DNA of 64,000 nt from Brachycybe producta (Eukaryota; Arthropoda; Diplopoda; Playtdesmida; Andrognathidae): assembly GCA_036925085.1 (NCBI GenBank), contig JAUPFP010000006.1, positions 7,021,984 to 7,085,983 on the forward strand, written 5' to 3'. A program made the position numbers and the translations under genes. A model generated the notes under the pieces. The model made no database searches. It was not told where the DNA came from and worked only from the letters and a program-made list of their open reading frames with translations. This document shows positions 21,701-59,372 of this stretch, piece by piece; position 1 is the first letter of the stretch; every line of letters starts with the position of its first letter.

Positions 21701-24700
21701 AATGACATGCCTCCAAAATACTGAACGCACGTGACCAATCCCTGTTCGCAGCCGGGCCACTACGTAGACCACCTTCGCCGGCAGCTAAGCAACCGAGTAC
21801 GTCGGCAATATTAGCAAGAACACGAGCGGCTCTTCCCGGATCCCACCCATCAGCGTCGTACTCCATCGCCATCGCATCGAGAGCATCCAACAAGCGGTCG
21901 GCCCAACTTTCACGAACAGCTTTTTCGAATAGAAGCGATAATGAACCTCGTCCACCTTCACAGAGAACATGGCGCATTTCGCTAACTGCCAAATTTATCG
22001 TTACTTCGCGTCGAAATGCAAATTCGGAAGCAATATCGACATTAGCTAAAACATCCTTTAATGAGATGCGATCCATCGCAAGCCACCTACGTAAAGAAAA
22101 ACACATGAAGTTAATTACCATCCTCTTTCTTCAATCGCCATTCTGCTCCTTACTGTTTAACGTTTGAAGATGTTTTATCGGAATCGTCCATCGCAAACCA
22201 CAAAACATTATCGAGATCAGTCTCGACATTATTGTAGTAGACTGGAAACAGTTTTGCAGAAAACAGCGTTTTATTCGTTTCTCCCTACGAAAACGATATT
22301 ATTGTTACTGGCTACGTTCAAGAAAAATGAAACAGTCAAAATCATACCAAAGAATCGTCCCATAGAACAGAATCCTCTATTCCAGATTGATTAAAGAATA
22401 GATCCCATGGTTTATTACAGAATGTGGCTTTTCGATCAGACCGAAAAGCATTCGGATCGTCTCGAGTGCCGTACACTATAACAGCAGATGCCGTGCTGCT
22501 TTCGAGTAGTGGCCACTTGATACGAGTCGACATCAGAATAACATCGGAAGGAATGATGATCGAAGAACCCTACACATTTTTATTTCAAAAATCTAATACT
22601 ACATATACATGTATATTTGAATACACAATGAGCGTACGGTGGAATTAACATCCAAAAATACTCCAGAGACGAGAGTTCCGCACCCGACAGTGATGGAATT
22701 ATGATCAGTTCCCCTTAAAATACTGTTCTGAATAAACGAAGGACGGTTCTGATGCATTCGGCTCTCGACTTCAACAAAATGTAACGATCCGTTAATTGGT
22801 ACTAAACCATTTGCTTCGGGAATGCAACGATTAAGGATTTCAAGATGACGAATCGGAGGCAAATGTTCAGACCAATATAAATGATCAACATTATGTAGAA
22901 TAACTAGAAGATGAAACGAATCACAGTCAAAATAAGTGTATACGAGAATACGAGAACTAAATAAAAACCGGCATTCATCTTGTATTTGCGTAACTCCTTC
23001 CAAACCATCCTTCGAACTTGAGACATTGAGGCTGTTAAGTGTCCATTTAGCGATCGATGAACTCCGTACGTTTTGCCACAGTCACCGGCTTCGAAGTCAT
23101 CGGCCGAAATATCGGTGGCCATTGCTGCCAAAATGTCAAAAAACAATGACACCTGAAACAAGTTTTAAAAGTGGTTTTTAAGTTTAGATGAAAAGAGATT
23201 GAATTCAAAGTGTGCTAAAAACTAGAAGGGTTACTCAATCATTTAATAGTATTTTCATTTTAATATCTTTTAAAATAAACGTTTCATAGACACAAATTGA
23301 AAAATATCATCTCCTTAAAGTCGAGTTAAATCCCTATTCGTTGTTTCCGTCATCAGACATAATGAGCAAGACAAAAAAAATCTGCATAAAATTTACAAAA
23401 CGAATAATGACGATTCTAATAACCCTTTTCTGGACACATAATAATCGGTATCATCTAATATTAAAACGCTTAAAATACACAAATTTATAATTTTTTGAAA
23501 TTGTTTTGATTTTGCATTTTTATTTGCATAAAACGAAAAATGTTCTTGCATATTTTGGGTTTTTAGGCTAAAATCCGTAATACACAAATTGTATATTTTT
23601 GAATTTTATTTGAATAATGGTCTCAGTAATGCAAATGTTTTGCAATAATTTTACTAAAATCTTACTTGACCACAACCTGTAATACATTTGTTCCACTGTC
23701 GAGACCGAGATAAGTGCAGCTATCGATGGGAGCTCGCGACTCCAGTGAAAGGAGGCTCTCGGCAACGGACGAAGAAAGATAAACGATCCCTGATACGACC
23801 GGAACATTTCCGGATAGTTCAGACCTTTTACAACACTCTAAATCTTCGAGAGATCTCCTGTATTTAATGTCCCTTACAGTGTAAACGCCACTCGAGGACG
23901 TAGAAGATTCCAACTGAAGAACTCCATGGTCCACAGCATAGAGAAGATCACAAGGAACAGCAAAAAGAACGCAGTCCGACGACACAGATAAATTAACGGC
24001 ACTAAAACCGTTAAATCTCAGCAAAGTATCTGTGCCGCAAACCCAGACGCCACCAGAACGACATCCTACGATCGATGAAATCAGACTCTTGATGATCGAA
24101 AGGAGGTTCTCCATGTTACTAATAACATCGGAAGGATCGCTGTATCGAGGAATTGGAACAAACGCTTTGCCACACGGTTCGTACGGATAAGAACGACCAT
24201 TATGAAGGACGAGAACGTTCGTGTTGACGAATACGTCCGGATTGAGGACCTGAAACGATCGATCGAAATTCGAAGAGATTAAAACGATCAGATACAATCC
24301 TTTAAAACGACAACGCGGTGCGAACCATTAAGCCTCTTTTGGCGCTCAGATGTTCGGCTGCCACTAGAATGGCGTTCAACGTGGCTCCTCCACTTCCGAT
24401 TCCAACTTCTGGATCTTCGATTGCGAGCAAACTGGTTGTTTCGGCAAAAACTCCGTTCTTCTGCAACCGAACAAGTTCTGTCGTAATGAAAAAAAAAACT
24501 ATTTAATAATTAAAAACGACGCGTTTAACAGAGAAACGTTTTTTTAACTCATCGCTCAATCCAACCCTATTGAATAATTGATGACGTTCATCCATTAACA
24601 TAGATAGCGCATGACGTCACCGATTACTCAACGGACTGGAGAAACAAACAAACAAACAAAAAAAAAAGATAATGTACCTTGACGAATGGCTCGTGCACCG

Positions 24701-39844: not shown

Positions 39845-42800
39845 ATGATGAATGGAAAAGTAAGAAGAGTGAAAATCTCACCAGAAGACAATCACAAAAA
39901 TATAAACAATACTTTAACAAATATACCGATTATTAAAAACGACATTCAATTTAAAGAATCTTTTGGATCACTACAATACTTTTTTAAATGTTATGGCATT
40001 CAACTTTTTGATGAATCTAAAAGTTGTTTTCGTTTTCTCATTTATCCAATTGTAATTACCATTTGCTGCATCTTTTATGTCGATCAGATTATGACTGCGG
40101 TAAACGAACAAAAGAAAACGTTAAGCAAAACCACAGTACAATTTGTAATAGAAACCTTCTTTATGGCATCACGAATGTATTTAACTTTAATGACATACCT
40201 AGTACTTATCATAAGACAGAAAACATTACAGGAGATTTGTCAGCGCCTAATTGACATGACTTTTGTAACATTTGGACAAAAATCTCCCATATTCAAACTG
40301 ATCAAGAAACAAAACACAATAATGATTTGCATGATACATATTGTTAGCCTCATTCTTGTTTCCTATTATTATATCCCACCCATTTTTGACATTTGTTTGC
40401 GTAAAGAGAGTATCCCTAGTGCAAATGGTAATTTAAACAATTCATATGACAACTCAAGCAATTCAGATATTACTCAAGTTGCTTTGAAACAGACATGTCT
40501 TTTATTAAGTGTTAAAAACTCAGCAATTATTATTGGTAGTTTCATTATTGTACCAATTCAATTTGTAGTTATTTTGCTGTTTTTACAAATATGCAGAGTA
40601 ATAAACTACAGTTTTGAAAACCTATCGCAAAAAAGAGCGCTTGATAAATTTCCACGCAATCTATGTCAATACAAAGCAATTAGATACATTGAATACCATA
40701 TCATTCATTCAAAATTGGTCAAATTTCTTAATGATATATTTCGCGAACTTGTTATAACTTGGAGTGGTCTCGAATGCCTTCTTGTCATTTATGCAATCCG
40801 TCAAATGGATTTGCACAAACAATATCCAACTATCAAATGGAGCAACATTATTGCCATATTATTTAACGTCACGTTATTTGGAATCAAAGCTGTTATTCCG
40901 GCTAACGTTAATAACCAGGTAGAGAGATTGTTTTGTGTTTTTAACAAGTGCCGGGTGTTTAGAAGATGTCACTTTTTGTGCAACAAGATGCATGCGACTA
41001 GCGGCAAAGTGATTGCACTCATTGGCACATTCAATTCAATTCAATTAGATACACCTGCAATCAGCTTGAAAGCCATGTGGCAGGGGGGATTGCTCCCATT
41101 CATGAGTGATTGTCATTATTTAAAAATAAGACATCATCACGAAATTGAAATCGTCCTATCAAAGAACTATTCACAGGAAGAGAATTCCATAGTCTAACAA
41201 GATTAGGAATAAAAGACCAAAAATATGCATCAGTCCTAGCCATTAATTCCTTGAAAGTCTTTGAATGCCCAAATCTACCTTTACGAGGATTTATAGTTAG
41301 TAAACCATTAAGTAGAGTAATGTTATCATCAGACAGCAAACGTCCCAGAAGAGCGAGGCTTTGCTCATTTCTTCAGACTGCTAATGTTTCCCATTCTAGC
41401 TCTTGAAGCATAGATGATATGCTGTCAGTATATGCATACCGTCCCTTTACAAATCTTGCAGCCGTACACGCTGCACCATTTCTATTTCTTGTTTTAGGTT
41501 ATTTCAAAATGGGCTCCAAATTGGGGAACAATATTCTAAGATAGGTCTAACTAGGATAAAGTAGCAGACCTTCTTTACATTTTCATTACAATGTTTAAGG
41601 GTGTGTTGGATGGCGTGCGTTGACAACATACATGTATGTATGTTGCAAAAAATATGTACACACGACTAAGCATTGGTAGGCAGTGGGCACTTAACCTAGA
41701 CACCCACTATGGCGCGTAGCGACGCCCCGCACTACCCTGTAGGAACATTTCATGTGCTTTAATCCAGAACTCCGCCCATATAACGCGCCGCCACTAATCT
41801 GCTACTTGTGTAAGTGCAGTCCAACCGGAAGGTTTCACAATACAAATGAACACGTGTTGTTGTTTAAAACGAGGTATGCCAGCAAACGAAGCGATCTGAG
41901 TGGTGTCGGAATGTTACGTGAGCAGATTTATCCCCTGGTTCCTTCTGTCTACCCCCGCGCTCACACATACACAGGCGCACTGCTGCGCAGGCGAAAGTCA
42001 AAAGTTCTTCTCGAAACTTCTGGTATAGAATTAAGTTCTGCAAGCCTGTACTGCATGTCGCATATAGTGGACGTTGCACCATTTGATTTCATATAATGCA
42101 AACAACGGAAAGTTCTTTCAGGGGGCGCGGCACAGAACTGAGCGCCATAGTGGGCGACTAGCTTTAGTCGTTCTGATCCCAGTTGGGTACCTTCTTACCA
42201 ACACCATACACTATTCCTGATAATTTCAGGATTTGCTTTGTTCCCCAGCTATCCATATGTAAAGCAAAACCAAGCTATTGACATCTTTTGAAGTCATTCT
42301 GGTACCTGGTACCTGACAGTATGGGAGAATAATAGGCAATCTTTTAGGGATCCATGATCGTAAAAATGTAATAATTAACCCTGTTCTAGAGCAATGATTC
42401 CAAAGCATTAAGTTGACATTGCATCTTCTATATATCAATTTTAGATGCAGTGCATCCAGAGCCATATCTAGCTAATTTTGTGTCCGAGGCAAGAATAAAA
42501 CTGGCGCCTCTTATAAATTCTAGTTATTTTGTGCCTCAAAGCTTTGCGTCCGAGACAGATACCTCACTCGCCTAGATCTAGTTATGGCTCTCATTGTATC
42601 CTAACAATATTTGAACTTGGGCAAAGTTTGCTTGCACCTTTTGTTGCTTACGTTATTGCTTGCCACATTGCATGCGATGTTGCATGAAAAGAAGCAGCTT
42701 CAAAACGAAGCTTTAATTTTTAGTATTATTTATTTTACAAGGTTTCGGAGTCACTCAAGGGCCTTACTGTAATGTCAACATTTAAAAAGAATAAAAGGTC

Positions 42801-43191
42801 GCAATATACCGTTCAAGCATATGAGCCAATCGTTTATCAGCAAAAGCCCAATATGGTAAAAAACATGAAAACATGTTGAAAAAATTAGTAAAAAACGTCA
42901 CAACAAATAAGTACTTTTATTTTATTTTTAATGCAAGGATGTGGATAATAAAATTAAAATGTACATCGAGAATGTCATGATGGATCGAGCAGTGATAACA
43001 GGAATGGGAATGTACATTATCAGTAAAGATATGGTCTTAGAAGTAAGTTTTTTTTTGTTATCGTATGAAAATATTAAAACATACTGTACTTAAAAATCTG
43101 AAACTGAAATAATTAATATTATTTGTGAATTTTACAGGCATTTTCACAAGTATTGACTTACGTGATTATCTTGTATGGTATTCCAGCATAA
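39845..43191 (+). CDS. GRL1: gustatory-receptor-like seven-transmembrane protein, complete
   Basis: Four exons: 39845-40918 (358 codons), 42742-42855 (38), 42938-43042 (35), 43138-43191 (17 plus stop); all three introns are phase 0; 448 aa. The protein has about seven hydrophobic helices, a long charged N-terminal region (about 55 residues) and ends in VLTYVIILYGIPA. That places the insect-type TM7 signature (T-Y followed by hydrophobics) at the C-terminus. Membership of the insect gustatory/odorant receptor (Gr/GRL) superfamily rests on topology, this motif, the phase-0 C-terminal introns and the exon sizes shared with GRL2 and GRL5. Function is unknown: family members range from tastant-gated channels to developmental roles. 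The frame stays open past 40918 for 93 codons, but that tail runs into an antisense retrotransposon and is probably not used. Intron 1 hosts a LINE fragment and two MITEs. Confidence 0.8.
41100..41640 (-). pseudogene. Non-LTR retrotransposon reverse-transcriptase C-terminal fragment
   Basis: On the minus strand, frames broken by stops and shifts read LVRPILEYCSPIWSP (near 41550), AYTDSISSMLQELEWETLA (near 41430), SLALLGRLLSDDNITL and TDAYFWSFIPNLVRLWNSLP (41215 region). This succession is typical of the end of ORF2 of CR1/L2/Jockey-type LINEs. It is 5'-truncated and dead. It lies antisense in intron 1 of GRL1. Confidence 0.75.
41694..42167. mobile_element. MITE with CACCCACTATGGCGC ends
   Basis: Left end TAGACACCCACTATGGCGC and the reverse complement of the right end CTAGTCGCCCACTATGGCGC match at 16 of about 18 bases. 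It is about 470 bp and locally GC-rich. The open frame inside (41752-42096) has no known domain. Lies in GRL1 intron 1. Confidence 0.6.
42466..42598. mobile_element. Short hAT-like MITE, AGAGCCATAACTAG type, copy 2
   Basis: AGAGCCATATCTAGCTAA at the left and the inverted AGAGCCATAACTAGATCTAG at the right form terminal inverted repeats around about 130 bp. The interior matches 15631-15780. Confidence 0.55.
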
Positions 43192-43799
43192 GCTTGAAAA
43201 TGCTTATTTTTTTGCATGTAACCTTTATATTTTGTTATTATCACATGTCTCTGTCATATGCATACTAATAATTATCATAATGCACAGGAAATACAATTAA
43301 ATTAACTAATTAAATGCACATTTAAACACTGTCAATGACTGATTTTATTCAATGTGTAGACAAGTTTATCTTTTTACACCATTCAAGCATATTTGGATTT
43401 CAATTTCAAAAAATTACTCTGCAAGCAGCCAAGAAGGCCTGTGGCAGAGATACAAAAATCCAATTGCAGCCTAAGAAATGCATCATGAAAATCCAAAGAT
43501 ATTAACCCAATAACTATAAGAGCCAATGTGCTCTGCTGCAACTAAAATAATACAAATAATAAATAAATTATATAAATTGTAAAATTGTTTTGTTCAATGT
43601 TGTATTTGCTATAGATTATATATAAATAATAAAGTAAGTCAACAATGGCAATCAATAGTTTTTCAAAATATTTATTGGCAATATAATACACAAAATAAAA
43701 TATAGTTATTTAATCATGACAAAATACATAAAGAATGTGACGTATCACTTACATACATTGATACATATGTGAGTATAGTATATTAATCATTAATAACAT

Positions 43800-44001
43800 A
43801 CTAGTGGGGTAACCCGTCATGTATGACGGGACATTCTAGTTTAACTATTTTATTCAAATACTGAAGGTTACTCAATGAAGGAGGTTTCCTTCTCTCCTCT
43901 CCCCCACCACCCTCACATGTGTTTGCTTAATGGTTTTTGTTCATGTGTTCTTACAGCGTTACATACAGACAGACAGACTTGGCTTAATATATATATATAT
44001 A
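43800..44001. repeat. Hairpin-headed repeat family B, copy 1
   Basis: Begins ACTAGTGGGGTAACCCGTCA. Positions 43813-43830 form a perfect 8-bp-stem hairpin (CCCGTCAT-GT-ATGACGGG). It ends with ACAGACAGACAGACTTGGC and a TATATA tail. The next copy begins immediately afterwards. Confidence 0.7.
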
Positions 44002-44296
44002 ACTAGTGGGGTAACCTGTCATAAATGACGGGAGCAAAATTCACAGGCAATTGTGCGCATGCGCATCGTTTTTTCCTTTTTTACTCCTTTCATTTCAATT
44101 TCAGTCGCCCCCTCCCACTTTTCTCTCTCTCTCCCCCCTTCTACACGGTCCAAAGGAAGAGTTCAACATATAGTTGACCTTGAAAAAAAACCGGTTCATT
44201 TATTCAAATTTATATAAACTCCGACGTGCTTCAATGGTTTTGTTACTCCACACACACACACACACACACACAGACCTGGGATATTATATATATAAT
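44002..44296. repeat. Hairpin-headed repeat family B, copy 2
   Basis: ACTAGTGGGGTAACCTGTCA followed by the hairpin (one stem mismatch), pyrimidine-rich CTCCCCC tracts, AAACTCCGACGTGCTTC, a (CA)n run at about 44252-44272, then GACCTGGGATATTATATATA. Closest to the nested copy at 52178-52592, with which it shares GGGAGCAAAATTCACAGGCA. Confidence 0.7.
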
Positions 44297-44402
44297 TTTA
44301 CAAAAAAAATTGCAACAATAAATAAATAAGAAAACAAGATACAACATAACACATTTTTATTGAATATGGTAACAATTGTTACAGGGAAAAGAAATGTTTG
44401 TA

Positions 44403-46009
44403 TTAATCTCCTTCCGGAATTCCGTATAATGCCAGAATATATGTTAATGCTAATCCAGCTGCCTATTTTTTTTAACAAATATATTTGCATAAATATTCAA
44501 CTATAATTTGAGCTAAAAAAATACTTCATATCAAGAACATACCGTCAAAAGTACTGCAAAATGAATGTTAAAAAGGCCCATTCCACTGACACTAGGTGGA
44601 TTTATGGCCACATGTCGAATATATAATTCAATCTGAGAATCAATTGACTGTAAAACAATTGTTAGATGATGAGGCATATATCACATAAATACAAAATGGC
44701 AATAATAAAATTATAATATACATTGTGATCATTATCTTCTGAGTCTTTGAACAAAATCTCGCTTGAAGGTTTCGCTATTATTGGAAATGTGTCCACTTCC
44801 GAAATCATAGTTAGCCCTTGAAGAGAATCTACTACCTAATAGTCAATTTTTTTTTATATTTAAAGAAAAAAGATTCTGTTAGGGACTAATAGGTTTAAAA
44901 TAAAGCAAACGTTAAAATTATATTACCTTATTATTTAAATGAGCCACAAAGGCAAGTTTCAATATACAAAGTAGAAGTGCCGTCAAAATGATAATAACAT
45001 CATTGAAATTAATAAAACTCATACCTTTGTGTAAATTAAGTAGACGAGCAAAGAAAACTATATTGACAAATTCTTCTAAACTCCATATTGCCAATGGTTG
45101 TTGAAAAACTTCATCATAAAGCTTAACAAGTTTGGTCAAAGAATGATGACAATGAACATAATCGTAAACTTTAGTAAGATTGACTTTATCAATTTCGTGT
45201 CCCAAACAGTACTTATTGTGAAACCCATCAAAATAAGCACTTATGAAATAAGACAAAAGCAAACATATCATAACAAACCAAAAATACAAAGGAATAGTTA
45301 TAGTGTAACCTATGGTGTAAATAATTGCTAAATGAAAATTTGTGAAAAAACTTAAAGTTGAATTATTATAATCAAGTGAAGAGATATTAAATTCATGATT
45401 CACACCAAAATTTATCCAAACTCTGTTCGAATTTTCAGCAGAACAAAATACTAAAGATTTCCAAGTAAAAATAATGCAAGTGCATAAAAGTACAAACAAC
45501 AAGAGCAGTGATAGTATTGTGACGCGACGAATTTTAGCATGTACCTTAGAATTTTCAGGAAGAACATCATCACCAAGACGATTCAGTTTGTCAAAAAGTT
45601 TTTGAAGAGTATTCTGCTTTTTATACAAAATTGAGTAAAGCGAAATTATTTCAATGACGTTAAACATGGTGTAGACAAAGGTGCTAGCAAAACGCAATGC
45701 CGGCGAGTGCAAACCTTCAGTGAGAGCAACGTAACAGACCATAAACAACAATCCTAAATAATGCAAACAGCAAAGAAATGAAAATAGTAAACACTTAAAG
45801 CATTTCAAAATGTTATCATTTCTATTTTCATACATATCAATGCCCCACAAACGAAATCCAGCATTCCAAATTTTGAAATCTTTGTAACAAGTTCCACTTG
45901 TATTTAGTAAAACTGAATAAATTCTTTTTGATACGAATGAGCTCGTAGATGAAGGTGCCTCAACACGATTATCAAACTTACCGTCAGTCCACGATAATTT
46001 GTCATCCAT
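44403..46009 (-). CDS. GRL2: gustatory-receptor-like seven-transmembrane protein, complete
   Basis: Four exons, 5' to 3': 46009-44927 (361 codons), 44835-44722 (38), 44647-44543 (35), 44462-44403 (19 plus stop); all introns phase 0; 453 aa. It has the same exon sizes as GRL1 although on the opposite strand. The long exon holds about six hydrophobic helices after a Ser-rich N-terminus. The 38-codon exon starts VVDSLQGLTMIS, clearly like VSESLKGLTVMS in GRL1. The last exon encodes the TM7 end LTYILALYGIPEGD. The acceptor chosen for the last exon is the TAG at 44465-44463; the nearby CAG would give a stop after two codons. A minus-strand AATAAA lies at 44356-44361. GRL1 and GRL2 converge tail to tail. 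Ligand and cell type unknown. Confidence 0.82.
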
Positions 46010-46567
46010 TCTTTTTTTTTTATTTGGCTAAGCAAAACTGCAATAAAATTAAGATGAAGTTGTTCAAGTTTGCAATACAATATACTGTATAAGCTTATAT
46101 GAGGCAATATACTAAAATTTCTCAAAGGTTTCAAGAAATCTTGTAATTTTTTTTATTGAAACCACATACATACATACATACATATCTCTCAAAATCTATT
46201 AACCAATGAAAAAGCTAAATTTTCAAAATAAAAATATCATTGGTTATTAGATCTTATTAATTTATGAAACAAGAATTTTAAAAACAAATTGATATTATCA
46301 ATAAAAACCCACCTTCACAAATTATGTTGTATTTCTTGGCATTGAAATTTTTGCTCAAATAATACATTATTATATATGATTACTAGTTAATCTTTTTTTT
46401 TTTACAAAAGACTGAAATTTTCAATTTTTTTCAAAATAAAATTAAATGGAAAAGCATTTAATTAATCGGTATTTTGGCCATCACACAACTGATGTAACAA
46501 AGCCACATACAATATGTTTACGTAGATTTAAATTGAATATTTTTTTAATCGTTCATATATGTCGTTC

Positions 46568-46653
46568 GTATATATATATATATATATAATTATATATATA
46601 TATATATATATATAATTATATATATATATATATAATTATATATATATATATAC
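46568..46653. repeat. (TA)n microsatellite with AATTA interruptions
   Basis: Nearly pure TA dinucleotides broken at regular intervals by ATAATTATA, so that the block is itself higher-order repeated about three times. Lies upstream of GRL2 on its 5' side. Confidence 0.85.
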
Positions 46654-46956
46654 ATCTGTGAGTACGTACTGCATACCTGTATAGGTAAACTACAGTATCA
46701 ATTTGGAAAATGTATAATGGTTATCATTTTTAGGATTATGCTTAAAGATTTGTTTATTATTGCAATACTTAGGAAATATCCACCAATGGTCATCAGGCTC
46801 AACTGCATAAATCACATGCTTAAATTAAAGGCCTGATAATAGACAGTAGCATATACAAACACACAATCCATAACAACAATTGCCTTATAACAATAGATAG
46901 CAATTGAAAAATGTTGTACTTTAGAAAACGCCGTTCTTCATTAAATTGTCTATTGT

Positions 46957-47320
46957 ACTAGTGGGTTAACCCGTCATAAATGACGAGAGCCAAATTCTAG
47001 TTTAATTTTACTACTATTAGCCCCTCCCCCTTTTTGCCCCTCCACATTTCTCTCTCTTTCGCCCCCCCCCCACCCTTTCCAACCTTTGTCCTCTCCAATT
47101 TAATATCATGGAGAATGAGTTTGATTTAACTATTTTTTTTATTTATAAGCACCTTAATATTGTTTGGGTTCTTGGATCTGGAGAGCGCAAAATAACCGTA
47201 AACCATTAGAAAAAAAGGGGTTCATTTAAATTTAAGTAAATTCCGAAGTGCTTACTTGTTTTTGTCCTTGTTTGTACAGCGTTATAGACAGAAAGACTTA
47301 GGGTTAGTATGTATATAATA
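46957..47320. repeat. Hairpin-headed repeat family B, copy 3
   Basis: TACTAGTGGGTTAACCCGTC, hairpin with one mismatch (46968-46985), C/T-rich tract, then TTGTACAGCGTTATAGACAG and GGGTTAGTATGTATATAATA. It carries the intact target sites into which the fold-back element (at 47015-47016) and the nested family B copy (near 47316) inserted in the sister duplicate. Confidence 0.65.
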
Positions 47321-47750
47321 ATAATTGCAGAACCCAAACAACTTTTGTTTGATAGCAATAAACATCAGTGACAATTTGCAATAAATTCTTTCAATTAATT
47401 GAATGAGACACATTTACTCAAAACATTGAACAAAAATAAGTACCGGTAATCCAAACTTTAGAAATAATTGTCAGGGTGTACTTACTATACTTAATTTATA
47501 AACCTACATTAAGATTTTCAGACATCTTTATACATTTAATTAGTACAAGCCGTAATTAAAATAAAAGCTTCATATCCCATAAGACATAAATTTTCCTGCA
47601 TACAAAAAAGAAAATTTAGAAAACAACAGCAATGTAAATTACATAAACAAACAATCTACCGATTTAAATTAATTTATAACATCTAATATTAAACTACAGG
47701 TCGAATAAATAGATTAATATGCATTGGGCCCTAAACAGTAAGTAGACCTA

Positions 47751-48379
47751 CAGGGTGGGCCAAAAAAATGAGAACATCTTGTAGCATACGAGTTATTTAA
47801 AAATATAATTTAATTAATTATATTGTTTTATGTAATTTTGTTTGCCAAGTATTTAGCTAATCAGAAATCATGTTCAATGTGTCCTCCTTGCTTCTCAACG
47901 ACTTTTTCTAAGCATCGACGCCACTCGTTTATGCTACTGTCAATAAAGCTCTGCCCCAGATTTCTCCATTCTTTGATTATTGCCAACTTGAGCTCCTCAA
48001 CTGTGGTAAATTTTATCGTTGTCAATTTTATTGATAACCCGACTAACACTAGCTATGCTCCAGACTTTGTTTGAAAACTCATTGGTCATTCTCCTAGCAC
48101 CCCACTGTTTTTCAATTCGCAAATGTTTAATCAGAATACGGTCTTCTGCGGTAATGTATGTCATTCTTGGTTATAAAATTTAACCTGCTGATGTAATCAA
48201 TTGGCATATTAAAACCAAAGATGGCACCCGAAAATTGTCGAAATAAAGACATCATATAGCTAAATAGGTAAGTAAGTAAATGAGTAAACAATTTAAGCTA
48301 TTATGGATACAGTTAAACAAATTTTTATGTAATTATATTACTTTTTACGCAATGTTCTCACTTATTTTGGCCCACCCTG
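47751..48379 (-). mobile_element. Internally deleted mariner/Tc1-type transposon
   Basis: Terminal inverted repeats CAGGGTGGGCCAAAAAAATG and (reverse complement of right end) CAGGGTGGGCCAAAATAAGT, each flanked by the TA target duplication (47749-47750, 48380-48381); 629 bp. On the minus strand from ATG 48164 it encodes an N-terminal piece (MTYITAEDRILIKHLRIEKQ and onward, about 55 residues). After a deletion and frameshift comes the transposase end, with SSINEWRRCLEKVV and GGHIEHDF (stop at 47861). The catalytic centre is missing, so it could move only with a transposase supplied elsewhere. Present only in duplication copy A. Confidence 0.8.
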
Positions 48380-49031
48380 TATATGCAATATGCTTCAGTC
48401 TATAATAATAGACTAATTATAGTCTATTTTTTAAAGTCGAAAATATTACACATGCAAATTATTAAGGTGGCTGTTAATATATAAAAATACATTTGGTAGA
48501 AAATTAATAACGTTATTTAAATAAAAACAAGTTGAAAAATAATATTGTTTCCACTAAAAAAAATTACAATTTCAACCTCAGTTTATAAATTTAAATAACT
48601 TATTTGATCTTTACAGATATGTTTCATTTTTGATATGTTATTAACAATCAAGTTTAAATGTATAACATATATTTTTATGAAATACTCAATTTTAGTTTAA
48701 AAGTTTTGAGAAAGACAGACACCATATATAGTATCAATAAAAATCAAGAAATCTTAATGTAATTGATCAGATATTCGATACATATACTTAAAGAAAAGTT
48801 ACTTAGTTGTTCAATATTTCTATTAGCTAACCAAACCTTCCCCCTCTCCAAGAAAAATTAAATGGCAACTTCATTTCTTTCTTTACTAATAAAGTAAAAA
48901 GTTGCAAATCCTATATAGGATTTTAATCATTTAAATTGACAAAATGCCATTGCTGTTGAAATGAAAAAGCTTTTACTATAATAATGTTCAATAATTTAAA
49001 CTGAAAGATGGTTATCATACTAGGAAACTCG

Positions 49032-49068
49032 TATATATATACAATTCGTCTTTAAACCTAAGTTCAGT
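49032..49068 (+). promoter_or_regulatory. Candidate core promoter of GRL3 exon 1 (TATA + Inr)
   Basis: TATATATA at 49032 and an initiator-like TTCAGTCT with its A at 49066, spaced as expected for a TATA promoter (about 34 bp), and 46 bp before the ATG at 49114. Confidence 0.45.
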
Positions 49069-49113
49069 CTTTTGAAAATTATATCCAAGTGAAAAAAATA
49101 TTTGGAAAAAAAA

Positions 49114-50007
49114 ATGTCTTTGCAAAATATTAACAAGTTAATGAAACCATTTGCCATAGTTATGTTACCATTAAGTATTTATTTATTTCAATTCAAATTG
49201 TCATTTGGATTGAAATTCTTACATATTTGTGTCACAATGACTGTATTCCTATTTTTTATTGCTGTGTACACTTTACACCAAATATATCTTGAATCAATAA
49301 CCATTGGAATCAAAGGCACTGTTAATTACACCACATTCCTCGTTTGTGTTGTTATCATCTACACAACGATAATAATGTTTGCTAATACCTCCAATCTGAA
49401 AAAGGGCTTTAAAAAACTTTCAATTGTTTTGAAAATGATCAAAATTGATGGTCTTTGGCTGCCGAGATATTTTAGTTTGTTTTTTCTTTTTTTCTGCTGT
49501 TTATACGTGGTAATATTTTTAAAAATCATTATTGAAAATTATTTAGAAAAATATAATAAGTTTTCAACAGAGCTACAAGAAATTTGGGTTATAAAAAGAG
49601 AAATGGTAATAGTTATGTTCATTTCTTTCGCATGGTTCATGATGTTCACTTTCATAGCAAACGCACTCTTTGTGACACTCAATATGATTATGATATTCTC
49701 ATTTAAATCACTAATTAAGACTTTAGACAAGAAATCCCTCAATAAAATAAAGTTGGACAGTTGTTTAAAATACATTTACATACATGGACTTTTATGCAAG
49801 ACAACTAAACATTTTGACGACGCCTTTTTTATGATGACTGGGTTTTGGACAACCATTTACATGATATACATCGTGTGGCTATTTCGAATTATCGGAGTTA
49901 GACAGCGTGGTAACCGTGGTGGATATACCGACACGTTACAACCATTAGTAACTTATCTTGCGTTTTTACTTGCTGATATTACATCTGCTGCTGAAGTAAA
50001 TTTGCAG
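49114..50007 (+). CDS. GRL3 first exon: gustatory-receptor-like protein, C-terminal exons not adjacent
   Basis: One exon of 298 codons from the ATG at 49114 to a phase-0 donor CAG|GTAAAA after residues SAAEVNLQ. This matches the place where the long exon of GRL5 ends (SSAEINQQ). It has about six hydrophobic helices and a short N-terminus. Shared family features with GRL5 include KYIYIHGLLCKTTKHFDDAF and TGFWTTIYM. The frame continues 11 codons past the donor to a stop, so an unspliced product would lack TM7. No 38/35/17-codon exons lie before copy B, so this exon is either an alternative first exon for the exons at 58404-59372 or a truncated duplicate. The encoded protein is identical to GRL4. 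Confidence 0.65.
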
Positions 50008-50280
50008 GTAAAACAAATATTTTCATTTTGTTACTTAGAATAAAAACATTGTGATTGACACATTTTTTTAAAAAAAATCCTAAGTGGTCAGAATTATATT
50101 TATTGCCTAAGTTTCTAAAAAAATGTGGAAACATATTCTCGGATTGATTTTGGTTAAGCTGCATCATGGATATAATAACTAACACCTGAGAAAAAGCCTC
50201 TGTGACAACTTACCCCTGTGACTTTTAGTCCCGGTCTCCCCTACTTTAGAAAACGCCGTTCTTCATTAAATTGTCTATTG

Positions 50281-52177
50281 TACTAGTGGGTTAACCCGTC
50301 ATAAATGACGGGAGCCAAATTCTAGTTTAATTTTACTACTACAGTGCGTTTCAGATATAAAGTGCGTTTCAGTTATATCTCGAGTTAAACTTGATGGATT
50401 CGCCTGAAGTTTTCACCATAAACAGTTCATCTTTTATTACAAACTTTCTGCTAAAAAGAATTTTTTTCTCTTAAAAAGGTAAAAATTAAAAAAATTAAAA
50501 ACTGGAAAATGACCGTTTCATAATTATAGACGCACTAATGAACTTTTCACTTTAATTAATTATTGTGACAAAATAACATTCGGAACACAACAGTAACATT
50601 AAAATTTATAAGGTATATGACTGTCCTGATGTTTTAGACCTTAAAACATTGTTTTCTACATACTTTAAACTAGATTTATAAACATACAGAAATTCTGTCC
50701 CGAAGCAGCTAAAATGGCACTTTTCAGCTTTTATATTGTAGTATAATCATGGCAATCTGCTTAATTATCACGTAGGATGATATCCCAAAAGTTTTCTACA
50801 AGATTTAAGTCCGGGGGACACGCCGGCCATTCGAGAGTGGTGATATTTTGGTTCCGTAACCATTCCTTCATTAGGTTATTGGAGGAAACTGGGGAATTTT
50901 CTTGCTGGAATACTAAGCTAATGCCATGGAATCGATTTTTTATGGCAGTACATACTCTTGTAACAATGTCTGATAATCGCTGATATTTGTTTTGGTTGAA
51001 ATAAAGGCATAGCTCCTCATTCCAAAGGTACTAAACACTTCGCATATTGTCAGGCTCCCACCACCATTGGATGATTCTGATGGTTTTTATTATTTTTTTC
51101 ATATTAGAAAGATGTGAGGAGAAAACCACAATATTTTTCTAAACAAAATTTTGGCAGTGGGGGAGCATAATAATATGGGGAAGATTTAGTGCCTTTGGTA
51201 CGAGCAGCTTAGTTTTTGAAAAGCAGGCTCAGCCTTTATTTAAACCAAAAGAAATATCAGCAATTATCAGACATTGTTACGAGAGTATGTACTGCCATAA
51301 AACATCAATTCCATAGCATTAGCTTAGTATCCCAGCAAGAAAATGCCCCAATTTCCTCCAATAACCTAATGAAGGAATGGTTACGGAACCAAAATATCAC
51401 AACTCTCGAATGGCCGGCGTGTCCCCCAGACTTAAATCTTGTAGAAAACTTTTGGGACATCATTGTACATGATAATTAAGCAGATAGCCATGATTATAGT
51501 GCAATATCAAAGCTGAAAAGTGCCATTTTAGCTGCTTCGGGACAGAATTTCTGTAAATATGTTTATAAATCTAGTTTAAAGTATGTAGAAAACAATGTTT
51601 TAAGGTCTAAAACATCAGGACAGTCATATACCTTATAAATTTTAATGTTACTGTTGTGTTCCGAATGTTATTTTGTCACAATAATTAAAGTGAAAAGTTC
51701 ATTAGTGCGTCTATAATTATGAAACGGCCATTTTCCAGTTTTTAATTTTTTTAATTTTTACCTTTTTAAGAAAAAAATTCTGTTTAGCAGAAAGTTTGTA
51801 ATAAAAGATGATCTGTTTATGGTGAAAATTTCAGGCAAATCCATCAAGTTTAACTCGAGATATAACCCATTTTGGGGGTGCATCTATATATCTGAAACAC
51901 ACTGTATTAGCCCCTCCCTCTTTTTACCCCTCCACATTTCTCTCTCTCTCACCCCCCCCTTTCCAACCTTTGTGCTCTCCCATTTAATATAATGGAGAAT
52001 GAGTTCGATTTAACTATTGTTTGGGTTCTAGGATCGGGAGAGCGCAACATAACCTTAAACTATTAGAAAAAAAGGGGTTCATATAAATTTAAGTAAATTT
52101 CCGAGGTGCTTACGTGTTTTGTCCTTGTTTGTACAGCGTTATAGACAGAAAGACTTAGGGTTAGTATGTATATAATA
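50281..52177. repeat. Hairpin-headed repeat family B, copy 4, split by a transposon
   Basis: The duplicate of copy 3. Head at 50281 with the perfect hairpin at 50294-50311; interrupted at 50342-51904; resumes TATTAGCCCCTCCCTC at 51905 and runs to GGGTTAGTATGTATATAATA near 52175. Confidence 0.65.
50342..51904. mobile_element. Fold-back (inverted-duplicated) Tc1-type element
   Basis: Ends CAGTGCGTTTCAGATATA and, reverse complemented, CAGTGTGTTTCAGATATA, flanked by TA (50340-50341 and 51905-51906). Nearly the whole element is an inverted repeat: the arms 50342 to about 51080 and about 51160-51904 complement each other. Each arm carries the same 3' half of a transposase gene. In the plus direction the right arm reads QQENAPIS, then LEWPACPPDLNLVENFWDII near 51330-51470, the end of a DDE transposase, with E in place of the usual D of QQDNAP. 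No 5' half of the transposase exists. The empty target is preserved at 47011-47020. Confidence 0.88.
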
Positions 52178-52592
52178 ACTAGTGGGGTAACCCGTCATAA
52201 ATGACGGGAGCAAAATTCACAGGCAATTGTGCGCATTGGCGTCTTTTTTTTTTTCCTTTTTTTTACTCCTTTCATTTCAATTTCAGTCACCCCTTCCCAC
52301 TTTTCTCTCTTTCCCACTTTTCCCTCCTTCTACACTTTCCAACCTTTTCCCCCTCACCCCCTCCCACTTTTCTATCTCCCCTTCTACACTTTACAACCTT
52401 TTCCCCTCACCCCCTCCCACTTTTCTCTCTCCCCTTCTACACTTTCCAAAGGAAGAAGAGTTCAACATATAGTTGACCTTGAGAAAAAAAAACGGTTCAT
52501 TTATTCAAATTTATATAAATTCCGACGTGCTTCAATGGTTTTTGTTACTCCACACACACACACACACAGACCTGGGATATTATATATATAAT
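52178..52592. repeat. Hairpin-headed repeat family B, copy 5, nested in copy 4
   Basis: ACTAGTGGGGTAACCCGTCA with perfect hairpin (52191-52208), long C/T-rich tracts repeated about three times (TCACCCCCTCCCACTTTTC), then GACGTGCTTCAATGG, (CA)n and GACCTGGGATATTATATATA. Copy A has the uninterrupted sequence GTATATAATAATAATTGCAG at this point, so this is a precise insertion. Confidence 0.7.
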
Positions 52593-53431
52593 AATTGCAG
52601 AACCCATACAACTTTTGTTTGATAGCAATAAACATCAGCGAGAATTTGCAATAAATTCTTCCAATTAATTGAATGATTAATTTTTAAATATATGTTAACA
52701 AAACAACAAGGTGCACAGATATTTATGAGACAAATTTACTCAAAACATTGAACAAAAATAAATACCGGTAATCCAAACTTTAGAAATAATTGTCAGGGTG
52801 TAACTTACTATAAATGCAATCTATTTTTTAAAGTCGAAAATATTACACATGCAAATGATTAAGGTGGTTGTTAATATATAAAAATACATTTGGTAGAAAA
52901 TTAATAACGTTATTTAAATAAAAACAAGTTGAAAAATAATATTGTTTCCACTAAAAAAAAAATTACAATTTCAACCTCAGTTTATAAATTTAAATAACTT
53001 ATTTGATGTTTACATATATGTTTCATTTTTGATATGTTATTAACAATCAAGTTTAAATGTATAACATATATTTTTATGAAATACTCAATTTCAGTTTAAA
53101 AGTTTTGAGAAAGACAGACACCATATATAGTATCAATAAAAATCAAGAAATCTTAATGTAATTGATCAGATATTCGATACATATACTTAAAGAAAAGTTA
53201 CTTAGTTGTTCAATATTTCTATTAGCTAACCAAACCTTCCCCCTCTCCAAGAAAAAGTAAATGGCAACTTCATTTCTTTCGTTACTAATAAAGTAAAAAG
53301 TTGCAGATCCTAAATAGGATTTTAATCATTTAAATTGACAAAATGCCACTGCTGATGAAATGAAAAAAGCTTTTACTATTATAATGTTCAATAATTTAAA
53401 CTGAAAGATGGTTATCATACTAGGAAACTCG

Positions 53432-53468
53432 TATATATATACAATTCGTCTTTAAACCTAAGTTCAGT
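53432..53468 (+). promoter_or_regulatory. Candidate core promoter of GRL4 exon 1 (TATA + Inr)
   Basis: Same TATATATA and TTCAGTCT arrangement as at 49032-49068, conserved unchanged in the duplicate. Confidence 0.45.
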
Positions 53469-53513
53469 CTTTTGAAAATTATATCCAAGTGAAAAAAATA
53501 TTTGGAAAAAAAA

Positions 53514-54407
53514 ATGTCTTTGCAAAATATTAACAAGTTAATGAAACCATTTGCCATAGTTATGTTACCATTAAGTATTTATTTATTTCAATTCAAATTG
53601 TCATTTGGATTGAAATTCTTACATATTTGTGTCACAATGACTGTATTCCTATTTTTTATTGCTGTGTACACTTTACACCAAATATATCTTGAATCAATAA
53701 CCATTGGAATCAAAGGCACTGTTAATTACACAACATTCCTCGTTTGTGTTGTTATCATCTACACAACGATAATAATGTTTGCTAATACCTCCAATCTGAA
53801 AAAGGGCTTTAAAAAACTTTCAATTGTTTTGAAAATGATCAAAATTGATGGTCTTTGGCTGCCGAGATATTTTAGTTTGTTTTTTCTTTTTTTCTGCTGT
53901 TTATACGTGGTAATATTTTTAAAAATCATTATTGAAAATTATTTAGAAAAATATAATAAGTTTTCAACAGAGCTACAAGAAATTTGGGTTATAAAAAGAG
54001 AAATGGTAATAGTTATGTTCATTTCTTTCGCATGGTTCATGATGTTCACTTTCATAGCAAACGCACTCTTTGTGACACTCAATATGATTATGATATTCTC
54101 ATTTAAATCACTAATTAAGACTTTAGACAAGAAATCCCTCAATAAAATAAAGTTGGACAGTTGTTTAAAATACATTTACATACATGGACTTTTATGCAAG
54201 ACAACTAAACATTTTGACGACGCCTTTTTTATGATGACTGGGTTTTGGACAACCATTTACATGATATACATCGTGTGGCTATTTCGAATTATCGGAGTTA
54301 GACAGCGTGGTAACCGTGGTGGATATACCGACACGTTACAACCATTAGTAACTTATCTTGCGTTTTTACTTGCTGATATTACATCTGCTGCTGAAGTAAA
54401 TTTGCAG
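53514..54407 (+). CDS. GRL4 first exon: gustatory-receptor-like protein, duplicate of GRL3
   Basis: 298 codons, phase-0 donor at 54408. Protein sequence identical to GRL3; the only coding difference I saw is a silent ACC to ACA near 53731 (A copy near 49331). No matching short exons between here and GRL5. It may splice to the exons at 58404-59372, or be a first-exon-only duplicate. About six predicted helices; TM7 would come from the distal exons. Confidence 0.65.
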
Positions 54408-54537
54408 GTAAAACAAATATTTTCATTTTGTTACTTAGAATAAAATCACTTTGACTGACACTTTTTTTTAAAAAAATCCGAAGTGGTTAATATTTTATTT
54501 ATTGCCTAAGTTTCTAAAAAAAATGTGGAAACATATG

Positions 54538-56373
54538 GGTATAATTCATCATGGACAATAATAGGCAATGGATCACTGGTAATAATGGGTAATGCACCAC
54601 AACAGCATAGTGATTGGTAATATACTTGCATTCTGTAAATGCTACTGAGCTGTTAGAAGCTGACACTTTGCTAAAACTTCAGCAAATATGGAAGAAATTT
54701 GCAATTTACAAATGTATTCTATGTTAGACATGGCGATAAACTCAATACTAAGTGTAAAACCATGCATAACTTAGTAAAATAGGAGTCGTCAATTGTAGTG
54801 ACATTTGTTTTCCAATATTGCCTTGTGAAGGCCAGTTTCAATTGACATACAGTATTATCTATCAATGTCATGCACCCAGTTCACAAATAAAACGTAACAC
54901 TGAGTGCCAGCGATACGGAGGCATTTGGCATATATTTAATTGTAACATAAGCTTTTAGCAAAGAAATATAACAAAAATATCATACTTCAAGACACATAAA
55001 TAATATAATTAATCAATACATTAATATAACTATGACACCTGAAATGCAGTGGCTAATGCTATGCTCCATATATATTTTTTTTGTAAAATGTGGACACAAA
55101 AACGTCAAGAGAACGGTTTTTTTTAGAGACAACATAATAACATTATGAAAAATGGAAATTATTTTCAAAACTAGAATTGTAAAATACTATGTTACAAGTT
55201 AATTTCATGGCAGTATCTTAAAAAATTAACAATTTATAACAGTTTGAAAATAACCCGTGTTTATGTTTATTCATTTCGTGGAAAACTATTTTTGTCTTTT
55301 TAAAACTGTCGTAAAAAATTTATTTTTAAATTATCATCTTGAAGAAAACTTTTCGCATTGTCACCAACTACGCTAGTTTCTAAAACAATTAAAAGATATT
55401 TTTTTGGTAATGTTTCTCCTGAAAAAAAAAAACGGTTTGCTTGAGAAATATAAATGTTCTCAAAACTGCGTATGCGGGAAGGTTGGACTTTCGGTTAAAC
55501 GAAAACAAAATAAATATCTATCCAGTCACCTTATGATAAACAACATTGCAGGGCCAACGTTTTGACTTTCTTTTTCTATGTATGGTAAAACATGAAACAA
55601 GAATACAATGACTAAATCTCAGAATTGGATAGTTTCAGCTGTTAAATCGTTTTTTTTTAATACATTGTTGAAAAAAATTATTAACTTATAAATAAAGTTG
55701 TTAAGTAAAAAGAAAAAATATTAGTGTCTCAACTTCCAAACAAAAACAACATTTTACTCACTGCGAGTGTAATGTAGGGATTACATTTTAACAATATAAA
55801 TCAAAAGAGAGAAGAAAAAAAAGGTTTCCTTTTATAGTTAAGTAAATTGTTAAAATCAAACCTTTTTACTTTTAAATGCATTATAGAATGTTAATGAAAT
55901 GTACAATATGCAAAGCTTAAAATGTGTTGCAATCAATGATATCTTTTGTATCAGAAAATTAATATATGTTCTAACTTCCAAAAAAAAAAAACTATACTAG
56001 TATTTTGCATTAATTCCAGTTAAAAGTACGCTTGTAAAAGTTGTGTTATGTATGACCTAGGGCCATATACATTTGCAATATACATGCACATTGTGACATT
56101 AGCAAATATTAAAGCAGAGTGATAATCAATATGTACATTTTATTCAGAAAAATTTCAAATCACACAAAGTATTCTATGTTTTGAGTTACTGCCTTCCATT
56201 ACCAATATTTTACAATTGGTGCATTTACAAACAAGAAATAAACTATGCAAATTAATTATTTCGGAAAAATTCCTTTAAATATGAGTGCAAAAATGCCAAG
56301 TTTCGACAGTTCGGATAAAATACACAAGCTTTTCCATTCTGAATAATTATACTCTAAATATATATTCCTGTAC
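54538..56373. other. Intergenic/intronic stretch before GRL5 with a repeat copy
   Basis: No exon recognised. At about 55060-55545 lies a diverged inverted-repeat element related to that at 58817-59262 (shared GCTATGCTCCAT; CTAGAATTGTA near 55172; end AAATATCTATCCAGTCACCT near 55510). TATATATT upstream of the GRL5 ATG (near 56358) may be a TATA element but sits very close to the start. Confidence 0.45.
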
Positions 56374-59372
56374 ATGATGATTGGAGAAGAGGGACATACT
56401 GAACTTCAAAAAATATTCTACATATATGCAAGTGTTCTGTTTCCAGCTGGAATCTATATCTGGAACACTAAAGTATCATCAGGAATTCAGCGCTTGCATT
56501 ATTTTTTAATATCTTTTCCATCGCTCCCCATGTTAATTCATTACGCTTGGTTTTTATTTACATACATTGTAAAATATACAGGAGTAGATGGAACACAATC
56601 TATCCCCCAACTTATTGAACAAGTTGTAATACTAAGTCAAATCATTCTCATGTTCTTCAAAAAGAATTATCTTAAAATGGGTTTTGAGAAACTGTTTCAA
56701 ATTTTTCAAATGATCGAAATCAGAGGAATGAAAAAAATCACTTTTATTGTAGTATGTTTCATAATCTTCAGCATTTGCTTCAATCTATTCATGTACTATA
56801 GACTCCTATTACAGATTGGTTATGTTGGAACTGATAAAAACACATGGACGGTGAACGAAACTAGTTTCGTAGTAGAATTCAAAAGGGCCGGACTTCTTTT
56901 AAGTCAATATTACGCCATAGTCGACTATTGCGTGTATGGCTTATATGCAACTATAAGTGTCTTGGTATCAAAATCATTCAAGGCATTAGAAAAAACACTT
57001 GAGCGACAAGAGCCTCAAAGTGGCACCAAAAACGCATGCTTGAAATACATTTACTGCCATGGAATTCTATGCAATGCTGTCACACACTTTGATGAGGCTT
57101 TCTACATCTCGACAGGCATTTGGACAACCCTTAAAATGGTTATTGTTGTGTTGGTCATTCGTATACTTGCAGTTGCTCTCCCTCAAAAAACAGGTTTGAT
57201 AGGTACAATCAACTCCTCTCAAGCCCTTGTGAAACATGTAAGCGTTCTAATTGTCGTCATTGTGTCTTCGGCAGAAATAAACCAACAGGTATTACTTTAT
57301 TTTTAAAACTGAACCATTCAAATAATTTCTTGATACTGTAACAAGTTAGACCTCCTTGTTACGTGGCCCAAACTTGAGTTTCATCTTTAATTATTAGGGT
57401 GGTGTAACTGTCCTAATCTCTTGAGAAGAAGTTGAACAATGTCTTCTTGGGCGTGGTCCTACTTTTACCTCCCCATAGCTGTTGGGGTCATCGTTCTCCA
57501 CTGATTCCTAGTTCTTGCAATTTCAGCAAGAAATAACTTTACAAAAGACAAAACGCTAGTTGACTTGGTATACCATTTATTGTACTCTCAACTAGTTAAG
57601 TACAAAACTGGTTTATGAGACGTTGCGATGTTCAGGGGCCCATTAGACATGAACTAGAATTTCGTGAACAAGCAAATGAACCACCATCTAGTTACGACAC
57701 GGACATTTAAACCTTGGGCTTGTGTACACCTCCCGGAGTGCTTACGCATAAGAGACCGTGCCACAAATGGCATTCATTCAATTCCTGACGAGGAGACCTA
57801 TAGGACTCCTTGACCTGAAGACTGGGTGAGAGAGAAAGAAGAAATGGGACCAGGGCACCCAATTTTAGCATTAGCACTAAATTGGAATATGCCTTCTGTT
57901 ACAATACCATTAAAAGTAACCAATGTTAAACTATTTCTAAAGCTGTGTTCCTACTACGTGTACAGAGTAGGCTTTATGTCACAAAGGGGGCTATAAAATG
58001 TTATAACTATTTTGTTTATATTTTTTTAATGTTTCTTTTGGATTTTATAATTAACATGTTTTTTTTTTAATAATCATTTATAAAAAAAATACAACAACTG
58101 AAACTACAAACAAGAAGATAAGGTTTTATTTTCCAGATGAAAACTCATTGGGAGTCACCGAGTCACAGCTTTAGTCGATTCTTTTAATATTATTTCTAAT
58201 GGGTTTTAGGGGTTTCGAAATGAAGCATGTTCAATGTAAAAACGCAGTGCAAAATCTGAAATGTATTGAAATGTATGGTTTTTGGGCATTACACTTATTT
58301 CTCCATAGAAAATACATTGTTTTAGGTGTTATTTTCGACTGTGGCATTGAAATCCGTTGCCTTTTTCTTGTATAATATCTTAACATATCTCGTTTTATTG
58401 CAGCTATCAAAATCATTGAATAAATTAACCGAATTTGTGCAGAACATGGTATTAGAAAAAGACGAGGCAAATGATTCAACAGCTATTATACAGAATTTCA
58501 CTTCAGAGGAAAAAGAAGTAATTATCCTCCAAGATTTATAATAAATTTACTTGCTACTGAAGATTGTTATTTTTGTTAACATTTTTTAAAAATATTATTT
58601 TTGCGTTACAGAAACTTGCAAAAAGAGTGCTTCTCTATCGGAAACATGTTTTGATAACAAACCCTGCAATGACCACTTTTAAACTGTACACAATAACAAA
58701 CAATGATCTTTTGGTGGTATGAAATTAGTATTTTTTTTAAAACAATTGTTGAAAAACTATTGATAATTAAGATATTCGTTATTAATTTTTTTTACTCAAC
58801 GTTTCTAAATACAGTGTTAAGGTGACTGAATAGATATTTATTTTATTTGTGTTCCCCCCCCCCCCAAGATTGAAGCTTCTGTAGTGTCTAACGCTATGCT
58901 CCATTGACATTTTTTGTAATATTTCGACGCAAAAACATAAAGCGAACATTTTTTTTAAGAAACAAATTCAAATTGTTTTCAAAACTAGAATGGTAGAAGA
59001 ATATGCTAAAAGTTTGATTATGGTAATATCTTAAAAAATAAACATTTTATACTATTTTGAAAATGACCTGTTTTTTACTTTTTTACAATGTCATGTCCCC
59101 TTTTTCAAAATGTCTTAAACCACGAACTATTCTAGTTTGTAAAACACTTTTTCAAAACCGTGGGGAGAGAAAGAGACCTACCATAGAACATAATAGCCAC
59201 TCAGGGGCGCCCTCCCTGGGAACAAAAACAAAATAAAAATCTATTCAGCCACCTTAAGTTACATTTGTTATAGACCCTAAGTCACAGCTGATAATGTTAT
59301 TTGCTTGTTTCATTTCAGATTGCTTCAACAATGATAACATATGTTGTCATATTGTTTGGTATCGACGATTAA
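56374..59372 (+). CDS. GRL5: gustatory-receptor-like seven-transmembrane protein, complete
   Basis: Four exons: 56374-57288 (305 codons), 58404-58517 (38), 58612-58716 (35), 59319-59372 (17 plus stop); all phase 0; 395 aa. The first exon is homologous to GRL3/GRL4 (YIYCHGILCNAVTHFDEAFY; TGIWTTLKM). The short exons match GRL1 and GRL2 in length codon for codon: LSKSLNKLTEFVQN..., KLAKRVLLYRKHVLITNP..., then IASTMITYVVILFGIDD with the TM7 motif. The segment FKLYTITNNDLL before the last intron resembles the region preceding TM7 in insect gustatory receptors. The last intron holds an inverted-repeat transposon. The three short exons are the only ones available downstream for GRL3 and GRL4. Confidence 0.82.
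57300..58403 (+). other. First intron of GRL5 (unrecognised sequence)
   Basis: About 1.1 kb. The segment 57400-57880 is less AT-rich than its surroundings and has no recognised domain. TTCTAAAGCTGTGTTCCTAC near 57939 resembles the left end of the MITE at 28291. Confidence 0.4.
58817..59262. mobile_element. Inverted-repeat MITE in the last GRL5 intron
   Basis: Left TTAAGGTGACTGAATAGATA and the reverse complement of the right end TTAAGGTGGCTGAATAGATT agree over more than 35 bp into TTTTATTT...GTTCCC. The inside has the CTAGAATGGTAGAAG / TATTCTAGTTTGTAAAACAC blocks, making it a relative of family A. Confidence 0.65.

Follow-up and report, generated by a model that had tools for sequence, protein, structure and literature searches.

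The stretch of DNA analysed here (64,000 nucleotides, C6:7021984-7085983; hereafter the window) contains a small cluster of genes that are attributed, with a probability of about 0.87, to the gustatory receptor (Gr) family of a non-insect arthropod, two of them (G1 and G2) being independent genes and three further long exons (G3, G4 and G5) probably being alternative first exons of one shared tail. Membership of the encoded proteins in the insect gustatory and odorant receptor (Gr/Or) superfamily is supported by gene structure, by the motif of the seventh transmembrane helix (TM7) and by the fold of the G5 and, less strongly, the G1 long exon.

Gene structure of the receptor cluster

Exons were sought with a script that combines open exons bounded by AG and GT with last exons containing the residue pair TY; the genome (295.3 Mb, 442 contigs) was searched for relatives of the G5 long exon and of its 35-codon tail exon, and with Pfam profiles. 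The features of the cluster are as follows, in window positions:

39845-40918, plus strand: G1 long exon, 358 codons, encoding the part with helices TM1-TM6; open frame, phase-0 donor
42742-42855, plus strand: G1 exon 2, 38 codons, AG/GT bounded, phase 0; picked among alternatives by likeness to G2
42938-43042, plus strand: G1 exon 3, 35 codons, AG/GT bounded; resembles exon 3 of G2 and G5
43138-43191, plus strand: G1 last exon, 17 codons and stop; TM7, TY after six codons
46009-44927, minus strand: G2 long exon, 361 codons; resembles the G1 long exon
44835-44722, minus strand: G2 exon 2, 38 codons
44647-44543, minus strand: G2 exon 3, 35 codons
44462-44403, minus strand: G2 last exon, 19 codons and stop; TM7, TY after six codons
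49114-50007, plus strand: G3 long exon (298 codons) with a phase-0 donor; the exon-series search found no tail behind it
53514-54407, plus strand: G4 long exon, a tandem duplicate of G3 encoding the identical protein
56374-57288, plus strand: G5 long exon, 305 codons
58404-58517, plus strand: tail exon 2 of G5, 38 codons; proposed to be common to G3 and G4
58612-58716, plus strand: tail exon 3 of G5, 35 codons; best other genome match E 0.097
59319-59372, plus strand: tail exon 4 of G5, 17 codons and stop; TM7, TY after six codons

The short exons of G1, G2 and G5 are preceded by AG and followed by GT (the last exon ending in a stop codon) and read through in phase 0. These trios turned up in the script search among other candidates, and a series of 38, 35 and 16-20 codons with a correctly placed TY lies downstream of all three complete long exons. 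When each of the three downstream regions was dinucleotide-shuffled 60 times, no such series with TY appeared. Across all three genes the 35-codon exons resemble one another, as do the last exons (in 6 of 6 comparisons, none of 2000 residue shuffles reached the observed score); likeness of the 38-codon exons is weak evidence, as 30, 213 and 128 of 2000 shuffles reached it. Three exon series fit the length rule in the G1 region, and because other 38-codon candidates are present there, the choice of exon 2 of G1 depends on how closely it resembles that of G2. Between G1 and G2 the long exons are also similar (phmmer, ~1e-12); the two genes, on opposite strands, are independent of each other. Thus the original prediction of three complete genes, each with a long exon and exons of 38, 35 and 17-19 codons in phase 0, was borne out by the exon script and the shuffle tests, and splicing of the short exons onto the long ones is the arrangement predicted from genomic sequence; beyond it, two further long exons (G3 and G4) were found in the same stretch, between G2 and G5. 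Slightly varying copies of a recurring element that starts near ACTAGTGGGGTAACCCGTCATAAATGACGGG occur at several places in the cluster (at about window 43800, 44002, 46957, 50282 and 52178).

Assignment to the Gr/Or superfamily

The last intron lies six codons before TY in all three complete genes, all of which have three C-terminal phase-0 introns; G3 and G4 fit this pattern only if they use the tail of G5. Of the TYhhhhhQF motif, TY is kept in 3/3 complete genes and the QF position is not; the motif is described as partly conserved or not conserved outside insects (PMC9998090, in excerpt). Hydropathy peaks of the four spliced models, with overlapping peaks merged, are compatible with seven helices. 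Folding covered contiguous proteins of the window, namely the G1 and G5 long exons, TM7 being located on the short exons. For the G5 model the ranking of structural matches falls sharply after the Gr/Or structures, which indicates a Gr/Or-like fold of the TM1-TM6 part, and the best matches of the low-confidence G1 model are also insect Gr/Or structures. The comparison of folds had been named beforehand as a test that could overturn the assignment; run on the overall fold of these two long exons, it did not do so. In profile searches the long exons had no match to the Gr/Or families of Pfam, with none to 7tm_6 among four long exons at E 10 and none to 7tm_7 anywhere in the window. No Rfam family reached its gathering threshold in the window. 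Gene structure together with fold comparison can identify Gr genes that Pfam misses.

Proposed alternative first exons and shared tail

G3 and G4 lie 4,400 bases apart and encode identical proteins of 298 codons, with 1 difference in 894 coding bases. Upstream of them 18 of 684 positions differ (12 substitutions and 6 gap positions, three of the latter at the margin of the alignment), and after the donor 12 of 113 differ (two being gaps); the contrast between coding and upstream divergence has a Fisher p of 2.9e-6 with gaps counted and of 3.3e-4 for substitutions only. The exon-series search found no tail trio after G3 or G4 before the next long exon. At E 0.01 the sole relatives of the G5 long exon genome-wide are G3 and G4 (30% identity, E 1.7e-30), and no convincing second copy of the 35-codon tail exon of G5 was found in the genome, the next match being at E 0.097. 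The simplest reading would be a single locus in which three first exons alternate and use a common tail. An inverted repeat of transposon-like appearance occupies window 50556-51688 between G3 and G4; its arms, 131 nt and 329 nt long, are 100% and 93% complementary, respectively, and it contains what we read as Tc1/mariner-like peptide fragments.

In such a locus each of the three long first exons would probably have its own promoter, and alternative splicing would join each of them to the one set of three short exons encoding TM7. With the tail shared, the pore helix would be identical in every isoform while the ligand-binding part would vary, and G3 and G4 would differ from each other in expression only. 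That G3 and G4 encode exactly the same protein behind diverging promoters, feeding one tail together with G5, is put forward tentatively, at somewhat less than even odds. If true, copying the front exon alone would have given one receptor a further place of expression, gene conversion or selection would keep the G3 and G4 protein identical, and an exon-sharing Gr architecture would exist outside insects. This locus offers a modest case for studying alternative first exons in an arthropod that is probably not an insect.

G3 and G4 might instead be truncated, dying copies, arising from a duplication limited to the long exon and promoter, with their tails lost, as would agree with the missing tail exons before the next long exon and with the transposon-like repeat between the two. 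The near identity of their coding sequences could also stem from gene conversion or a recent copy, which would fit decaying copies as well. Nevertheless, we consider decay unlikely, since both frames are fully open, end in phase-0 donors and encode identical proteins while the flanking DNA has diverged, and a compatible phase-0 tail follows downstream of both on their own strand. A much smaller probability attaches to the proteins being an unrelated helical membrane family that merely resembles Gr: the lack of Pfam matches, the low confidence of the models and the structural scores of G1, which fall where helical proteins match through a common arrangement, would be explained, but the sharp fall in the G5 ranking after the Gr/Or rows would not, and the gene-structure signature with the position of TY is independent evidence for Gr.

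Receptor genes elsewhere in the genome

The genome has 41 matches to 7tm_7, all over the Pfam cut-off, among 101 candidates scored, some in frames that contain stops. Only weak matches to 7tm_6 were found (8 among 47 scored, best E 5.1e-6; none in the window), of which 4 overlap 7tm_7 matches, a fifth is in a frame of a Gr cluster, and three are on contig C71 without overlap. A second, larger Gr cluster is located at C6 8.71-8.91 Mb (loci L015-L034). A strict search that recovered the three genes of the window found no 35-codon exon with a TY exon in this cluster on either strand; two of its genes have a 30-codon phase-0 exon followed by a differently composed last exon, with helix ends TVTVIQF and TFTAIQL. 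In a one-by-one look at three other receptor genes, the middle exon of those two and the tail of locus L005 were not found.

Host group

The evidence places the host among the arthropods, probably outside the insects. Contig C442 (15,359 bases; loci L013 and L014) is mitochondrial and has a complete COX1, in which AGA stands at four positions suited to Ser (NNM-S-FWLLPP among them) and AAA at positions suited to Lys (STNH-K-DIGT among them); two of the four Ser sites, and likewise the Lys site, we take to be near-invariant in animals. These codon assignments argue against the codes of ascidians, vertebrates and echinoderms. A nuclear copy of COX1 (C1:12697416-12698753, L010), with 1329 of 1338 bases identical and one in-frame TAA, shows that C442 belongs with this nuclear genome. 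Of the ND5 frame, a segment of 367 residues matches PDB chain 8b9z best, with 395 bits; this chain is presumably of Drosophila (the listing names no organism), and the score is at most 265 bits with the other 41 sequences listed, some of which we take to be mammalian. Chitin_bind_4, the RR cuticle-protein domain typical of arthropods, has 33 matches among 37 scored candidates genome-wide. The gene order of C442 looks rearranged, with ND4L-ND4-ND5 frames on the COX1 strand and ND1 opposite (genes other than COX1 and ND5 were named by reading of the sequence), and a similar peptide frame is present in inverted copies near 4800-5099 and 10761-10943.

The original prediction placed the genes in a non-insect animal, which is likely, as the genome has no strong odorant receptor match, and suggested a chordate such as a tunicate, in which they would fill a gap in the distribution of the family. 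A chordate or other deuterostome host has a negligible probability and is rejected by the COX1 sites with AGA as Ser and AAA as Lys on a contig tied to the nuclear genome through the C1 copy, by the affinity of ND5 to 8b9z over the other chains listed, mammalian ones included, and by the cuticle proteins. No gap is filled, the host being an arthropod, among which Gr genes are the rule; the premise that the family is missing from chordates is itself dated, as the chordate candidates PHTF and GrlHz have already been reported (Benton and Himmel 2023, PMC9998090, in excerpt). No publication on gustatory receptor-like proteins and tunicates was found in the literature searched. An insect host with divergent insect Grs is improbable, although less so. 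ND5 is closest to the presumed Drosophila chain among the PDB matches listed, but no other arthropod chain was recognized there, so that ND5 cannot separate insects from other arthropods. The 8 weak matches to 7tm_6 point to a non-insect host, whereas an insect with Orco should match much more strongly; as that search proceeded exon by exon, an intron-rich Orco could score low.

Other genes in the window

A transporter exon (14357-14962, plus strand), with weak TPT/EamA matches below the Pfam cut-offs, resembles a nucleotide-sugar transporter, and a fucokinase-like gene with GHMP kinase and Fucose_pyrophosphorylase exons is at 20157-24327 on the minus strand; together they may constitute a fucose-pathway neighbourhood. 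Exons with Cys_rich_FGFR repeats (5781-6287 and 8818-9165, both minus strand) resemble what we take to be Golgi apparatus protein 1.

Proposed protein function

The insect relatives are tetrameric, ligand-opened cation channels in which TM7 lines the pore and extensions of TM4-TM6 hold the subunits together (general knowledge and PMC9998090, in excerpt). By analogy, each protein of the cluster would be a seven-helix membrane protein that forms ligand-gated cation channels of four subunits, in chemosensory cells or elsewhere.

Comparison with known systems

No sign of insect odorant receptors (7tm_6, Orco) was found in these searches: the four long exons have no 7tm_6 match at E 10, and the matches in the genome are weak. 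The gustatory receptor-like proteins of other animals, and the candidate chordate members PHTF and GrlHz, share the superfamily fold, but as far as the excerpted source goes (PMC9998090) they are diverged lineages mostly outside or beside the classic Grs, whereas the genes described here belong to an arthropod and have a standard Gr gene structure.

In Drosophila Gr39a, long N-terminal exons, for which alternative splicing is hypothesized, stand before three C-terminal exons that they share, and Gr28a/b are also named as alternatively spliced (PMC3011837, in excerpt); several Or loci of Thermobia were modelled alike with four short exons, mostly without RNA support (PMC6080948, in excerpt). 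The G3-G5 locus would resemble Gr39a in that several long first exons alternate ahead of one common set of three C-terminal exons, but it has only three first exons, two of them with the same protein, and its splicing is predicted from the genome sequence.

With arthropod Grs such as those of Daphnia pulex, the genes of the window have in common three C-terminal phase-0 introns; most Daphnia Grs likewise place the last of these six codons ahead of TY (PMC2680840). The clustering and strong divergence of the genes, and a genome with many Gr and no strong Or matches, are further points in common with arthropod Grs such as those of the centipede Strigamia maritima, for which 77 Grs and no ORs are given (PMC4244043, in excerpt). 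Differences are that TM7 here keeps TY but not QF, and that the proteins are too diverged for the 7tm_7 profile of Pfam. A lead on chemoreceptors in an unexpected animal resolves into a normal Gr cluster of an arthropod, in which exons are probably shared in a way already described.
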